64,000 bases of DNA from Prochlorococcus marinus str. MIT 9211 (lineage in GTDB: Bacteria > Cyanobacteriota > Cyanobacteriia > PCC-6307 > Cyanobiaceae), in the NCBI RefSeq assembly GCF_000018585.1, contig NC_009976.1:62001-126000 (forward strand). The letters are read 5' to 3'. Every line of letters begins with the position of its first letter. Positions within the stretch are counted from its first letter, which is position 1. A program made the position numbers and the translations under genes. Below, piece after piece: positions 3,307-10,117 of this stretch. Under the pieces are notes generated by a model, which had not been told where the DNA came from, ran no database searches, and saw only the letters and a program-made list of their open reading frames with translations.

Positions 3307-4431
3307 ATGAAACTTGTAGCGATAATTTCTCCAGGCCTTGAAGCTGAGGCAGCAAAAGAATTGTATGAATTGGGTGCAGCAGAAATTCAACCTTTACCAC
3401 GATGCGTAGAATTTCAAGTTGATTTGCAATGTTTTTATAGGATCCATTTGAGAAGTAGATTACCCTTTCGCTTCTTAAGAGAAATAGCCCGATTTCATTG
3501 TAATAATCCAGAATCTTTATATACAAATGCACAGCAAGCTTTTGATTGGATTAGATGGCTTCCTCCATCCAAAACGTTTAAGGTTGATGTCTCAGGAACT
3601 AGTTTTGGCTTAACGCATAGTCATTTCACAGCCTTACAAGTAAAAAATGCCATTATTGATTTACAACGAAGTTCTTGTGGAAAAAGATCCGATATAAGCG
3701 TTCAGGATCCAGACATATGTATTCATTTACATTTGCACAACAATCAGGCTGTTTTGAGTCTTGATTCATCCGCTCATAGCTTGCATAGAAGAGGTTTTCG
3801 TCCAGCGATGGGAGTTGCACCTTTAAAAGAAAACCTTGCTGCTGGCTTATTGCGTCTGACTAATTGGGACTTTTCTATGCCCTTAGTAGATCCATTGTGT
3901 GGCTCTGGGACTTTCTTAATCGAGGGAGCTGCACTAGCGCTTGGCTTAGCTCCAGGCTTACATCAAAAGTTTCTTTTTACAAATTGGCCCGATTTTGATA
4001 CTTCTTTATGGGAGCAGGAAAAGCATTTAGCTCAAGTTAGTCAATTACCTAAGCAACAGTTACCAAAAATTATCGGATGTGAGAAAAATAGTGAAATAGC
4101 TAATCAGGCAAAAAGTAATATAATTGAGTCAGGTTTAGGCTTAGAAATAAAGATTCAGAATAGTCATTTTTTTGATCTTGAATTGCCTAATGATAAAGGA
4201 CTGATTGTTTGTAATCCCCCTTATGGAAAAAGATCTGGAAAAGAAGAAGATTTGGAAACTTTATATAATGAACTTGGCTCTTTTTGTAAAAAGAAAGCTT
4301 CTGGATGGAATCTATGGCTACTTAATGGTAATCCAAACTTAAGTAAGTTTCTTAGATTAAAAGCTAAAAGGCGTATACCAGTCAGTAACGGAGGTATAGA
4401 TTGTCGATGGCTGCATTATGAGATTAATTGA
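3307..4431 (+). CDS. THUMP-domain RNA methyltransferase (RlmL/UPF0020 family)
   Basis: The 374-aa protein has an N-terminal THUMP-like RNA-binding region (about residues 45-155) and a Rossmann-fold methyltransferase domain. The SAM-binding loop DPLCGSGTFLIEGA lies near residue 195 and the catalytic motif ICNPPYGKR near 302; NPPY is typical of enzymes that methylate an exocyclic amino group. The closest known role is N2-guanine methylation of 23S rRNA by the N-terminal half of E. coli RlmL; the second RlmL half is missing here. ATG start at 3307. It is divergent from the tmRNA gene and its stop abuts the stop of the next, convergent gene. The target base is not predictable from sequence. Confidence 0.88.
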   Translation: MKLVAIISPGLEAEAAKELYELGAAEIQPLPRCVEFQVDLQCFYRIHLRSRLPFRFLREIARFHCNNPESLYTNAQQAFDWIRWLPPSKTFKVDVSGTSFGLTHSHFTALQVKNAIIDLQRSSCGKRSDISVQDPDICIHLHLHNNQAVLSLDSSAHSLHRRGFRPAMGVAPLKENLAAGLLRLTNWDFSMPLVDPLCGSGTFLIEGAALALGLAPGLHQKFLFTNWPDFDTSLWEQEKHLAQVSQLPKQQLPKIIGCEKNSEIANQAKSNIIESGLGLEIKIQNSHFFDLELPNDKGLIVCNPPYGKRSGKEEDLETLYNELGSFCKKKASGWNLWLLNGNPNLSKFLRLKAKRRIPVSNGGIDCRWLHYEIN

Positions 4432-5303: not shown

Positions 5304-5505
5304 AGCCTAGAGACCACTTGGCTCCAATGGAACCCTTGTGATTGACGATCTTTTCAAATCAACGCAAGCCAATCAATAGAAAGAATGCAGGTATGGGATT
5401 GGATACTTGAAGATTTACTTAAATTGAAACGTCTTCTTTGCTTACATTTATTTGCTATATGAAGGCTTCTAGTGCTAAACGTCTTGTATAACTTATTTAG
5501 CGATT

Positions 5506-5637
5506 ATGGACGTCGGATTGTCTGCAATGTTTTTTGCGTCCAATACCCTCCCTACAGATTTTGGTTTAGTTCTTGCAGCAATTGCAGGAGCTGGGAGCTT
5601 GCTTTTGATTGCATTGAATTTCGTCCCAGGCGATTAA
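5506..5637 (+). CDS. 43-aa single-span membrane peptide, unrecognised
   Basis: ATG to TAA gives 43 codons that start MDVGLSAMFF and end ALNFVPGD, with one hydrophobic span at about residues 18-39 (GLVLAAIAGAGSLLLIALNF). The size and single span resemble the tiny subunits of photosystems, cytochrome b6f or NDH-1, but it matches none that I can name with confidence (not PsbM, PsbY, PsaI, PsaM, PetM or PetN by memory). It stands alone, with about 200 bp of upstream non-coding sequence and a possible terminator after it, so it likely has its own promoter. Confidence 0.7.
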   Translation: MDVGLSAMFFASNTLPTDFGLVLAAIAGAGSLLLIALNFVPGD

Positions 5638-5668
5638 ACGCAAATCTCTAGCATTTTATTTTTGGTTA

Positions 5669-5700
5669 AATCCCTTCTGCTAGGGGTTTGACTAATTTTT
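5669..5700 (+). terminator. Possible terminator after the 43-aa gene
   Basis: A short hairpin AATCCC-TTCTGCTA-GGGGTT (5669-5688, one G-T pair) is followed after a few bases by a T-rich stretch (ATTTTT). It lies 31 bp after the stop of the small gene. The T tract is not directly attached, so this is only a fair candidate. Confidence 0.35.
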
Positions 5701-5815
5701 GTTGACTTTTCAAGTTTCTTTAAACCAATAAATTTTTAATCAATCTATTAAAACTTTCAAAACCAAATAAATAATTGAATATTGAGGATTATTTTCTTCA
5801 ACTTATTTGATAATT

Positions 5816-6028
5816 ATGTCTATTCAAGAACCTATACAGTCTAGCTTGCAACAAAAATTTCAAGCTGAAAGGCTTGCTCGAATAATTCAAGATTGTGAAG
5901 ATATAGAAACCCTTAAAGCGATTGCAATAGAACTTTTAAAATTAAATCAGAAAAAGACTGCAATAGCTGAGTGGACCACTAGAAGAGCATTGGAAGCAGA
6001 ACAGATTCAATTCAAAGAAAAATTCTAA
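5816..6028 (+). CDS. Conserved small hypothetical protein, 70 aa
   Basis: I start the gene at ATG 5816; the frame also allows a TTG three codons upstream, but the ATG is the better start. The product is fully helical in character, with QQKFQAERLARIIQD, DIETLKAIAIELLKLNQ and a C-terminal TRRALEAEQIQF, and no hydrophobic span. It looks like a small soluble cyanobacterial protein that could bind a partner through an amphipathic helix. I do not recognise its function. It precedes the LigD-phosphoesterase-like gene by 42 bp in the same direction. Confidence 0.65.
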   Translation: MSIQEPIQSSLQQKFQAERLARIIQDCEDIETLKAIAIELLKLNQKKTAIAEWTTRRALEAEQIQFKEKF

Positions 6029-6070
6029 AGTAAAAATTTTTTAGAATTGTATGATTTACTCTCTAAAGCT

Positions 6071-6454
6071 ATGAAAAAAAGATGGGTTCTTTTGGAACAT
6101 AGAAGTTCAAGATATAGTCTTAATGAGATACATTTTGATTTGCTCCTAGAGGAGGAGCATGATTGTAGAACTTGGAGGTTAGAAGATTTACCAAAATGTG
6201 ATGGCCCACCTGTCGAGGCTCTTGCTAGTCCTCCGCATAATCTTTATTGGTTAGAAAGAAAAGAATCGGTTGTATCTGGAGGCAGGGGGTGGGCTAAGCG
6301 TGTAGAAGGGGGCATATTCATTGGTTGCTTGCCCTTGAGAGGCCATCAATCTCAAATTGCTGTTGAGCTAGTTGGAGACAGCATTTCTGGAGTTTTAGAA
6401 ATCAAAAATAATTTGTGCAACCTTGTATCTTTAGAAAAATTCAATTGCATTTAG
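6071..6454 (+). CDS. Stand-alone LigD 3'-phosphoesterase-like domain protein
   Basis: Starting from ATG 6071 the protein has 127 aa. Its pattern RWVLLEH, then HFDLLLEEE, then RTWRL, then PPHNLYWLE, then VSGGRGWAKRVEGGIF follows the layout of the 3'-phosphoesterase domain of bacterial DNA ligase D, where His, His and Asp residues bind the metal (here the H of LLEH and the HxD of IHFD). The Arg of the LigD YDxRLE motif is Leu here, as I recall for short stand-alone relatives. No polymerase or ligase domain is attached and no ku gene is in the window. It lies 63 bp upstream of smc. Fold assignment is likely; activity is unproven. Confidence 0.65.
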   Translation: MKKRWVLLEHRSSRYSLNEIHFDLLLEEEHDCRTWRLEDLPKCDGPPVEALASPPHNLYWLERKESVVSGGRGWAKRVEGGIFIGCLPLRGHQSQIAVELVGDSISGVLEIKNNLCNLVSLEKFNCI

Positions 6455-6517
6455 GCAATTGCTACTTGAGCTTCCTGAAGGCTTCGCTAGTCTTTGAACT
6501 CTATAGCTTTGGTCCTG

Positions 6518-9500
6518 TTGGTATACATCAATCAGGTAGAGCTTACAAATTTTAAGTCCTTTGGAGGGTCGATGACGATCCCTCTTGAAGAGGGCTTTAC
6601 TGTTGTAACTGGCCCCAATGGTTCTGGGAAAAGCAATATTTTAGATGGAATTTTGTTTTGCCTTGGCTTGGCGACTAGTAGAGGTATGCGCGCAGATAGA
6701 TTGCCAGACTTGGTAAATAGCGGTGTTTTAAGAGCTGGCAAATCAGCTGAAACGGTTGTTTCTGTTAGGTTTGATCTTCAAGATTGGCAACCAGATTCTG
6801 CAGAAGATGGTTTAGAGATTCCTAAAGAAGGACCATGGATCAAGCCAGATCAAAAGCAATGGACTGTAACTCGTCGCTTAAGGGTGATGCCAGGAGGCTC
6901 TTATAGCTCTATTTACAGTGCAGATGGTGAAATATGTAATTTGCAGCAACTACAGACTCAATTAAGACGTCTTCGTATTGATCCAGAAGGAAGCAACGTG
7001 GTTATGCAAGGGGATGTTACGCGCATTGTTTCTATGAGTAATAAAGATCGGCGTGGTTTAATTGATGAATTAGCAGGTGTTGCTCTTTTTGATCATCGCA
7101 TTGATCAAGCTAGAACAAAGCTTGATGACGTATTTGAACGTCAGGAGCGTTGTCGAATTGTTGAACAGGAGTTGTTTACGTCTAAGGTTCGTTTGGAGAA
7201 AGATTGTGAGAAAGCTCGTCTTTATAAACAATTAAAAGAGCAACATCAACTTGCAAGGCAGCAAGAATCTGTTCTTGCCTTTGAAGTGGCGAAAGATTCT
7301 TTGGAACAATTAAAAACTCGTCGAAGAAAGTTATTAGAAAAAGAAACTCTTGATCAAAATATTTTATTGGAGAAACAAAAGACACTTCAAACTTCATCTG
7401 AAATACTGAGTAAATTGCAGGAAGAAGTAAAAGCTTTAGGAGAAGACAAATTGATTGCAGTTCAGGCAGAGATTGCAGGCATAGAGACCCAGGCTAGAGA
7501 ACTTGAGAGACAGGCAGGACAACATAAACTTGATGGTGAAAAGCTTCAAGAGAAAAGGAAGGAATTAATTAATCGGCATCAAGAGATCAATGAAGATGTA
7601 CCAGAAGATATAGATTCAGAGCTTTCAAAAAGATTGCAGTTAGCAGAAAGTAAATGTAAAGATGCTGAATCTGCTGTAGAAGTTTCTAGAAGAAGACTTG
7701 CTGATGTTGCAGGACGTTCTGGTGCTTTGGTTGAAGAGCATAGAGATCGCAACTTTGCCAGACAAAATCTTCACTCTCAATTAAAACCTCTGCAGCATGA
7801 GCAGCAAAAATTGGAAGAGAGATTATTGCAGATTACTGAGAGACTTGATGAGTTAGCCGTAGATCAGACTAAAGATAGTTGTGAGGATAAGAAACTACAA
7901 AATGAATTAAACCTTCTTGATAACGAATGGAAATTACTTGTAGATCAAATTGACCAATTAAAACATTTTGTTGACAGCACAAGTGAAGATTTGTCTATAC
8001 AAGAAAGGACGAGATTTCGTCTTGAGAAGGATCAAGCCAGAATGGAGAAAGAGATAGCTCGCTTAGAAAGTAGAAGAGAAACATTGAATGAAAGTAGAGG
8101 TACAGGTGCTTTAAGGCTTTTGCTTCAGTCTGGCTTAGAAGGTATACATGGACCTGTAGCTCAGTTAGCAGAAGTTGATAATATTCACCGGCTTGCCGTT
8201 GAAGTTGCTGCGGGTGCTAGAATTGGTCAAATTGTGGTAGATAATGATCAAATAGCAGCTCGTGCAATTGATTTGTTAAAGACTAAGAAAGCAGGAAGAT
8301 TAACTTTTTTACCTCTCAATAAAATTAAGAGCTCAGGAGATAATAGTAAGCTTAAATCTTTTTCAAATGCTACAAATAGATATATGGAAGGATTAATTGG
8401 TGGTGCAATTGAATTAGTTAAGTTTGAGTCTATTTATAAAGGTGTTTTTTCTTATGTATTTGGAGATACTCTTGTTTTTAAAGATATTAATTCTGCACGT
8501 TCATACTTAGGAAGATATAGATCAGTGACTCTTGGGGGTGAGCTTTTAGAGAAAAGTGGAGCAATGACTGGTGGTAATTTTTCAGCTAGAAGCGGTGCTT
8601 TAAGTTTTGGTATTAGCACTGAAGCTGATGAAATCGAACCATTGCGCCAAAGGTTGCTTGAACTTGGAGAAACTCTTTTGAAGTGTAGAAAAGAAGAAGC
8701 CTCTTTACGCGATCTTCTTAATCAGAATAGACCTCTATTAAGCAAGCTAGAGAAAAGACAGGCATCTTTAGATGCTCAACGTTCAACATTTAAAAGATCT
8801 AACAGTCCATTGATAGAACGCACGAAAGAACGAGCTGATCGTCTCAATGCTTTGGGAAAAACAAAACAAGAATATATTTTGCGTTTGGGTTCTCTTAAGC
8901 AAGCAATAGAACCACTTGTTATTGCTTTAAAAGATTTAGAAGATAAAGAAAAGTTAGTTAAATCAGATGAGCATTCAGAAAATTGGCGCAAATTACAAGA
9001 TGATCTTGAAGCAGCTGATGCAATGCTTGTAGAAGCTAGAGCTGAGAGAGACGACTTATTAAATGATAAACGTCAACGTGAATTAGTTTTAGATCGTTTA
9101 GAGGATCAAAAAAATTCATTAATTGCGGAACAAGATAGATTGCAAGAGTCAATTGATTTATTAACTAAACAACATATAAAGTGGCGTGAACAAAATCAAG
9201 CTTTAGGCGTACATCGCAAGGAACTTGAAAAAGAAAAGCAAAATCTAGAAACCCATTTTGGTCAAAAACGTCAAGAACGAGATAAAGCAGAAGCAGATCT
9301 TGCTAATCAGCGACAAAAGCTTCAAGATTTACAATTCAAATTTGAGAGATTAAAAGAAGAGATCTTGAGTGTTAATGAGGAACTTAGACATAGCCACATC
9401 AGACTAAATGAATTAGAAGCTAATCTTCCAGACCCATTACCTGATATTCCAGAAGAAGTAAGAATAAATGGATTGGATTTTATACAGGATCAATTGAAAA

Positions 9501-10117
9501 ACTTAGAGAATCGTCTAGAAGCTCTTGAGCCAGTGAATATGCTTGCCTTAGAGGAATTGGAAAAATTAGAATCTAGACTCTTTGCTCTTGCTGAAAAGCT
9601 AGAAGTTTTGACAGAAGAACGTTCTGAATTGTTATTGCGTGTTGAAACAGTAGCTACTCTGCGTCAAGAGGCCTTTATGGAAGCTTTTGAAGCGGTTGAT
9701 GGATATTTCCGTGAAATCTTTGCAAGTCTCTCGGAAGGGGATGGTCATCTTCAATTGGACAATCCTGAAGATCCTTTAGAGGGAGGTCTTACATTAGTAG
9801 CACATCCAAAAGGTAAATCTGTTAGAAGACTGGCTGCAATGTCAGGAGGAGAAAAGTCTTTGACAGCATTAAGTTTCTTATTTGCATTACAACGTTTTCG
9901 TCCATCACCTTTTTATGCATTAGATGAAGTGGATAGTTTTTTGGATGGCGTCAATGTTGAGCGCTTATCTTCTTTAATTGCTAGACAGTCTGAGGATGCA
10001 CAGTTTATGGTTGTAAGTCATCGTCGTCCAATGATTGGAGCTGCGACAAGAACTATTGGTGTAACTCAAGCTCGAGGAAACCATACTCAGGTTGTTGGTT
10101 TGCCCACGGCAGCTTGA
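6518..10117 (+). CDS. smc: Chromosome segregation protein SMC
   Basis: The 1199-aa protein has the full SMC plan: a head with Walker A GPNGSGKS near residue 32, a long coiled coil, a hinge at about residues 525-690 (with VAAGARIGQIVVDND and GAMTGG), a returning coiled coil, and a C-terminal head with signature MSGGEKSLTAL near 1107 and Walker B FYALDEVDSFLDG near 1132. SMC is the ATP-driven loop-extruding core of bacterial condensin and acts on the nucleoid. The most likely start is TTG at 6518 (MVYINQVELTNFKSFGG), where homology of the family begins; the frame stays open a few codons upstream. ScpA and ScpB partners are not in the window. Confidence 0.96.
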   Translation: MVYINQVELTNFKSFGGSMTIPLEEGFTVVTGPNGSGKSNILDGILFCLGLATSRGMRADRLPDLVNSGVLRAGKSAETVVSVRFDLQDWQPDSAEDGLEIPKEGPWIKPDQKQWTVTRRLRVMPGGSYSSIYSADGEICNLQQLQTQLRRLRIDPEGSNVVMQGDVTRIVSMSNKDRRGLIDELAGVALFDHRIDQARTKLDDVFERQERCRIVEQELFTSKVRLEKDCEKARLYKQLKEQHQLARQQESVLAFEVAKDSLEQLKTRRRKLLEKETLDQNILLEKQKTLQTSSEILSKLQEEVKALGEDKLIAVQAEIAGIETQARELERQAGQHKLDGEKLQEKRKELINRHQEINEDVPEDIDSELSKRLQLAESKCKDAESAVEVSRRRLADVAGRSGALVEEHRDRNFARQNLHSQLKPLQHEQQKLEERLLQITERLDELAVDQTKDSCEDKKLQNELNLLDNEWKLLVDQIDQLKHFVDSTSEDLSIQERTRFRLEKDQARMEKEIARLESRRETLNESRGTGALRLLLQSGLEGIHGPVAQLAEVDNIHRLAVEVAAGARIGQIVVDNDQIAARAIDLLKTKKAGRLTFLPLNKIKSSGDNSKLKSFSNATNRYMEGLIGGAIELVKFESIYKGVFSYVFGDTLVFKDINSARSYLGRYRSVTLGGELLEKSGAMTGGNFSARSGALSFGISTEADEIEPLRQRLLELGETLLKCRKEEASLRDLLNQNRPLLSKLEKRQASLDAQRSTFKRSNSPLIERTKERADRLNALGKTKQEYILRLGSLKQAIEPLVIALKDLEDKEKLVKSDEHSENWRKLQDDLEAADAMLVEARAERDDLLNDKRQRELVLDRLEDQKNSLIAEQDRLQESIDLLTKQHIKWREQNQALGVHRKELEKEKQNLETHFGQKRQERDKAEADLANQRQKLQDLQFKFERLKEEILSVNEELRHSHIRLNELEANLPDPLPDIPEEVRINGLDFIQDQLKNLENRLEALEPVNMLALEELEKLESRLFALAEKLEVLTEERSELLLRVETVATLRQEAFMEAFEAVDGYFREIFASLSEGDGHLQLDNPEDPLEGGLTLVAHPKGKSVRRLAAMSGGEKSLTALSFLFALQRFRPSPFYALDEVDSFLDGVNVERLSSLIARQSEDAQFMVVSHRRPMIGAATRTIGVTQARGNHTQVVGLPTAA

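Follow-up and report, generated by a model that had tools for sequence, protein, structure and literature searches.

The 3'-phosphoesterase (PE) superfamily is reportedly the subject of papers in PNAS in 2010 and in NAR in 2011 and 2012. In the PE domain of P. aeruginosa LigD, manganese is bound by His42, His48 and Asp50 and sulphate by Arg52, His84 and Tyr88, and Gln40 and Ser61 also belong to the active site, according to a review (PMC8656161). The same review describes LigD mutated at His84 or Tyr88 as inactive and names archaeal PEs of Methanosarcina barkeri, Korarchaeum and Methanocella (PMC8656161).

We analysed a window of 64,000 nucleotides from Prochlorococcus marinus MIT 9211, whose genome is a single contig of 1,688,963 bases (1.69 Mb); the window covers bases 62001-126000 of it. 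An open reading frame on the plus strand at 6071-6454, stop codon included, begins with ATG, ends with TAG and encodes a protein of 127 aa. A first-pass annotation of this stretch had described a stand-alone LigD-PE-like domain just upstream of smc, marked by HFD and VSGGRG blocks and by a Leu in place of the Arg of DxRLE. The two blocks are there, as His21-Phe-Asp23 and as residues 68-73, and the replacement is seen as Leu25 within IHFDLLLE. The proposed relationship is borne out by profile search with a family alignment, by profile-profile comparison with hhalign and, weakly, by fold search. The best reading of these data is that the 127-aa family belongs to the LigD PE superfamily as a divergent stand-alone member.

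The gene has homologues, keeps invariant residues, is linked to smc and is under selection. It is not a chance reading frame, because homologues are present in 115 of 251 genomes of the window genome's family, 12 columns are invariant across the 48-member family alignment and dN/dS is 0.19-0.31 in the seven pairs compared (rough estimates in the three pairs with dS >1). In the region 5304-6600, no RNA element matched Rfam at the gathering threshold and promoter-like sites were not in excess (4, against a shuffle mean of 3.5); terminator-like sites numbered 4 against a shuffle mean of 1.0. Among the open-licence papers listed by literature searches, none is about this gene by its title or the start of its abstract.

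By itself, the 127-aa protein matched no Pfam family at E<=10, no NCBIfam family and, at a significant level, no PDB sequence, and its link to PE therefore depends on the family profile. Profile searches were performed with a 48-row family alignment (A1). Against 177,635 PDB sequences, the top five matches of A1 were 3p43, 3p4h, 3n9b, 2lj6 and 5dmp, all of them PEs, with E-values from 2.8e-5 to 0.0069, followed by a CDGSH protein at 0.063. Two of the five are labelled 'uncharacterized' in that set and are named PE in the fold search described below. A1 was also compared with an alignment of eight PE domains from plasmid-encoded proteins (A2) using hhalign, which gave an E-value of 1.6e-6, a probability of 90 and a score of 42.6 over 105 columns. 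None of 100 column-shuffled versions of A2 equalled this score, the highest reaching 23.9, and reversed A2 scored 13.8.

The first-pass annotation had proposed a check against PF13298, and its outcome was divided. Matches were found among the relatives, with 33 of the 48 family members matching PF13298 at a loose E<=10 (best 2e-6) and three of the 48 matching TIGR02777 at E<=0.1 (best 4.6e-4), and not for the window's protein alone. In a sample of 291 genomes of the phylum, PF13298 was matched at E<=0.001 in nine, all of one genus and with 27 bits at best, and its curated cut-off of 31.1 bits was passed in none.

CDGSH iron-sulphur proteins were a second candidate, with weak matches around CRTW..CDG (E 0.084 for the single protein and 0.063 for the profile). 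In the PDB search with the single protein, CDGSH chains stood above the PE chains 3p43 (E 0.19) and 3p4h (E 0.77). We rejected this assignment because the profile matches to PE are better and longer and because the other aligned family sequences lack the Cys43 of the window's protein.

Structure prediction from the single sequence gave a model with a pLDDT of 30.5. From a three-row alignment, the best of five AlphaFold models reached a pLDDT of 53, the others 35-37. A Foldseek search with the pLDDT-53 model returned PE chains at ranks 1-7 of 350,542 in the PDB, with probabilities of 0.94-1.00, at rmsd values of 6.1-9.0 Å and none with E<=0.001. The only other high-probability match in the best 50 rows was RelE (40 columns, probability 0.85, E 1.2). 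This fold search is weak, and it depends on the PDB, the training set of AlphaFold. Three kinds of evidence, from profile, profile-profile and fold comparison, thus point to the PE superfamily, the fold part weakly. A resemblance of motifs with no true relation to LigD PE would agree with the unmatched single protein and with the lack of anything above the Pfam cut-off in the 291 genomes. We consider it very improbable, since the profile search, the shuffle-controlled profile-profile comparison and the fold search all name PE.

The active site of the PE-like protein was compared with that of P. aeruginosa LigD PE (PF13298/TIGR02777; PDB 3n9b, 3n9d, 2lj6) using correspondences from the hhalign comparison of A1 and A2 and residue counts from a 51-sequence family alignment that includes the window's protein. 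All codons given here are on the plus strand. The metal triad His42/His48/Asp50 is kept in sequence as His10 (6098-6100), His21 and Asp23 (both within 6131-6145), each in 51/51 sequences. Of the phosphate ligands, His84 is likewise kept, as His56, in 51/51, whereas the Arg52 position is Leu25 (6131-6145) and the Tyr88 position is Trp60 (with His56 in 6236-6250), again in 51/51 each. The Ser61 position is occupied by Thr34, with Thr or Ser in 50/51, and the Gln40 position by Leu8, with Leu in 50/51. Cys32 and Trp35, which flank Thr34 at 6164-6175, Arg72 and Gly73 of the VSGGRG loop (6272-6289), and Gly81 are also invariant (51/51), Cys32 and Arg72 being invariants new to this family. Arg and Tyr are both present in all eight plasmid-encoded PE domains of A2 (8/8).

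A metal half that is kept and a phosphate half that is altered in a fixed manner look more like remodelling of an enzyme than like its decay. With two of the three defining phosphate ligands replaced, we call the protein PE-like, a member of the same superfamily and not a LigD-type PE. PE-type catalysis in this family is in doubt, because LigD mutants at His84 or Tyr88 are reported to be inactive and the Arg52 and Tyr88 positions are Leu and Trp here. Of the first-pass reading, the stand-alone PE-like domain is supported by the PE homology, the metal triad and the fourth His; the 3'-end cleaning function is putative, and beyond the change of Arg to Leu the Trp at the Tyr88 position, the Leu at the Gln40 position and the lack of anything above the PF13298 cut-off in the 291 genomes count against it. 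The changed Arg52 and Tyr88 positions would also fit a catalytically dead PE fold, retained as an adaptor that binds DNA ends or phosphate and possibly acts with SMC. Against this stand the invariance of the three metal ligands and of the His84 position, which is unusual in a dead enzyme, and part of the genomic data considered below; in our view such an adaptor is quite improbable.

Further differences from LigD PE lie in the architecture. The 127-aa protein is fused to neither ligase nor polymerase, its genome has no detectable Ku or ATP-dependent ligase, five extra residues separate its two metal His in the hhalign alignment, and it scores below the Pfam cut-off. With its weak model as the query, the fold matches that rank first are PE chains. 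The archaeal PEs 3p43 (which we take to be the Methanosarcina PE), 3p4h and 5dmp resemble it as compact PE domains and are among its best profile matches and its top seven fold matches. In contrast to the Leu and Trp of the 127-aa family, 3p43 and 3p4h have Arg (within HYDFRLE and HWDLRLE) and Tyr (within HPLAY and HDLSY) in the alignments of the PDB profile search. A Streptomyces fungicidicus plasmid encodes another short PE protein (WP_121549226.1, 202 aa; locus L098) whose neighbours are not ligase or polymerase. This protein, annotated as 'DNA polymerase ligase N-terminal domain-containing protein', has the canonical HFDFRL and HPLEY, unlike the 127-aa family. It comes from plasmid searches that covered the best 60 of 501 and the best 60 of 466 records; among the matches listed, many are annotated as ligD, many are unannotated and one is annotated as a methyltransferase. 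Stand-alone PE-like proteins with a residue other than Arg at the Arg52 position and with a VSGGRG block seem to occur in planctomycetes and others, and the 127-aa family may belong with them to a wider clade.

To describe the distribution of the gene, we used 251 genomes from 59 genera of the window genome's family, which we read as Cyanobiaceae (Prochlorococcus, marine Synechococcus and Cyanobium). The 115 genomes with a homologue represent 30 of the 59 genera in a search with the single sequence, and the profile search gave a similar picture; among good-quality genomes of the family, 82 of 167 carry the gene. In the phylum sample the gene was matched in 30 of 291 genomes, all 30 within this family, and no match was found in the sampled genomes beyond it. 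The sole relative in a collection of named genomes was from Prochlorococcus sp. AG-409-A10, at 50% identity. The gene is thus not confined to MIT 9211. Four genomes (G045, G009, G072 and G102) were absent from the profile matches, although smc and the upstream holin-like and RlmL-like genes are in place in all four; tblastn of the family against these stretches gave a best E-value of 0.024 among the best three rows for each.

Mobile elements were searched with relatives of the gene. Plasmids gave no match at E<=1 to one relative (L038), tblastn of another (L051) against phages gave four weak matches, the best at E 0.9, and a second scan of viral contigs for relatives returned nothing. The single relative on a viral contig, IMGVR_UViG_3300006334_001400 (L081), lies on a sequence that carries T4-like cyanophage structural genes, by reading, up to ~4180. 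From 4183 to its end, this contig is 95% identical to L051 and is Prochlorococcus-type host sequence, so that the junction near 4183 of phage genes and host sequence is probably an assembly chimera. A phage origin was rejected, as the phage matches are only weak and the one viral-contig relative looks like such a chimera.

In the window, the PE-like gene is followed on the plus strand by the chromosome-organising gene smc at 6518-10117, recognised by the Pfam SMC_N and hinge domains and probably starting at a TTG codon at 6518, as judged from the sequence. Upstream, a conserved ORF of 70 aa at 5816-6028 (plus strand) has matches in 17 of 51 loci, counting that of the window itself, and none to a Pfam or NCBIfam family. 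A hydrophobic 43-aa ORF lies at ~5506-5637 on the plus strand, and L081 has an ORF like it ahead of its copy of the gene; our guess would be a small membrane or photosystem subunit. The neighbours that have Pfam names are SMC, PRC-barrel, holin-like, DUF883 and RlmL-like, the last of the rRNA methyltransferase type and situated beyond two oppositely oriented genes.

The distance from the end of the gene match to the smc match is 62-101 bp, on the same strand, in 94 of the 99 genomes for which positions of both are listed. The five genomes in which the gene is unlinked from smc all belong to one genus (g10), and in three of them (L037, L105 and L106) it lies near an ORF that we take to be mfd. 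Across the family sample, smc is present in 227 of 251 genomes, compared with 115 for the PE-like gene. In one genome (G025), the gene is intact while smc is a remnant. At this locus (L047; G025:C1:1532000-1545000), a short piece of smc remains at ~6900-7140 with its neighbours intact, and the N-terminal 324 aa of SMC had no match at E<=1e-20 in the genome, which is 95% complete. SMC was apparently lost in this picocyanobacterial lineage.

An obligate SMC accessory was rejected as the main reading, given the five unlinked genomes and the intact gene beside the smc remnant in G025. The position before smc is a conserved neighbourhood and possibly reflects co-transcription; it is not an obligate partnership. 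The same data bear on the dead adaptor for SMC, which would be favoured by the linkage in 94 of 99 genomes. The persistence of the gene in G025, its location apart from smc in five genomes and the difference between 227 and 115 genomes argue against it.

The first-pass annotation had seen no Ku or ligase nearby, and this extends to the genome as a whole. Neither Ku (PF02735) nor an ATP-dependent ligase (PF01068) was matched anywhere in the genome at E<=0.001, with positive control searches, and PF13298 likewise had no match genome-wide at this threshold. The 127-aa protein is therefore not part of a Ku-LigD system. AP_endonuc_2 (PF01261, the endonuclease IV type) had no match in the MIT 9211 genome. 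A single Exo_endo_phos protein, ExoIII-like by reading, is encoded at C1:454422-455177, and it was the only candidate found for a classical AP endonuclease or 3'-phosphatase. With an ExoIII-like protein present, this genome has no obvious gap in 3'-end cleaning.

These results also bear on the substrate. The PE fold and metal site may have been kept for something other than DNA ends, such as RNA 3' ends (2',3'-cyclic or 3'-phosphate, or tail trimming) or a small phosphodiester. This would agree with the kept metal site and with two of three phosphate-site residues unlike those of DNA-acting PEs in 51/51 sequences, with a genome without Ku, ATP-dependent ligase or PF13298, and with an ExoIII-like protein already available for DNA 3' ends. 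Nevertheless, we judge a different substrate unlikely: there is no positive evidence for a link to RNA, smc lies directly downstream, and the other Pfam-named neighbours are PRC-barrel, holin-like and DUF883, with the RlmL-like gene only beyond the two opposite genes.

We therefore return to the PE-like protein as an enzyme acting on 3' ends. We consider it fairly probable that it is a divergent one-domain protein of the PE superfamily, a predicted one-metal 3'-end phosphoesterase that is independent of NHEJ. Judged from its conserved residues, it is probably active and metal-dependent, with an altered phosphate site. In the mechanism that we propose, a small beta-rich domain would bind a single divalent metal ion, probably Mn2+, with His10, His21 and Asp23 as ligands, and His56 would place the phosphate beside the metal. 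The predicted reaction is hydrolysis of a phosphoester at the 3' end of a nucleic acid, which would remove either a 3'-phosphate or a ribonucleotide at the 3' terminus. Trp60, perhaps together with the invariant Arg72, would make up for the lost contacts of Arg52 and Tyr88. The VSGGRG loop with Arg72, the alignment of which differs between the PDB profile search and hhalign, falls close to the loop behind the His84-Tyr88 motif of PE domains, and Arg72 may perhaps take over from Arg52. The enzyme would work outside NHEJ, most likely in housekeeping repair or trimming of 3' ends beside the ExoIII-like protein. More tentatively, the family could be a new PE clade whose phosphate-binding Arg sits on an active-site loop (Arg72) instead of the barrel (Arg52, here Leu), with Trp in place of Tyr88. 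The gene next to smc would then encode a 3'-end enzyme that is independent of NHEJ and has a novel substrate or a novel chemistry; we hold this possible, though rather doubtful.

If this reading is right, a PE-type protein has been retained without NHEJ, in a phylum of which 0 of 291 sampled genomes rise above the PF13298 cut-off. Its naturally altered PE active site may help to study metal binding apart from phosphate binding. Picocyanobacteria are the most abundant phototrophs of the ocean. In their streamlined genomes, where few genes are dispensable, a conserved protein that Pfam and NCBIfam leave unnamed in MIT 9211 would thus be given a testable function.
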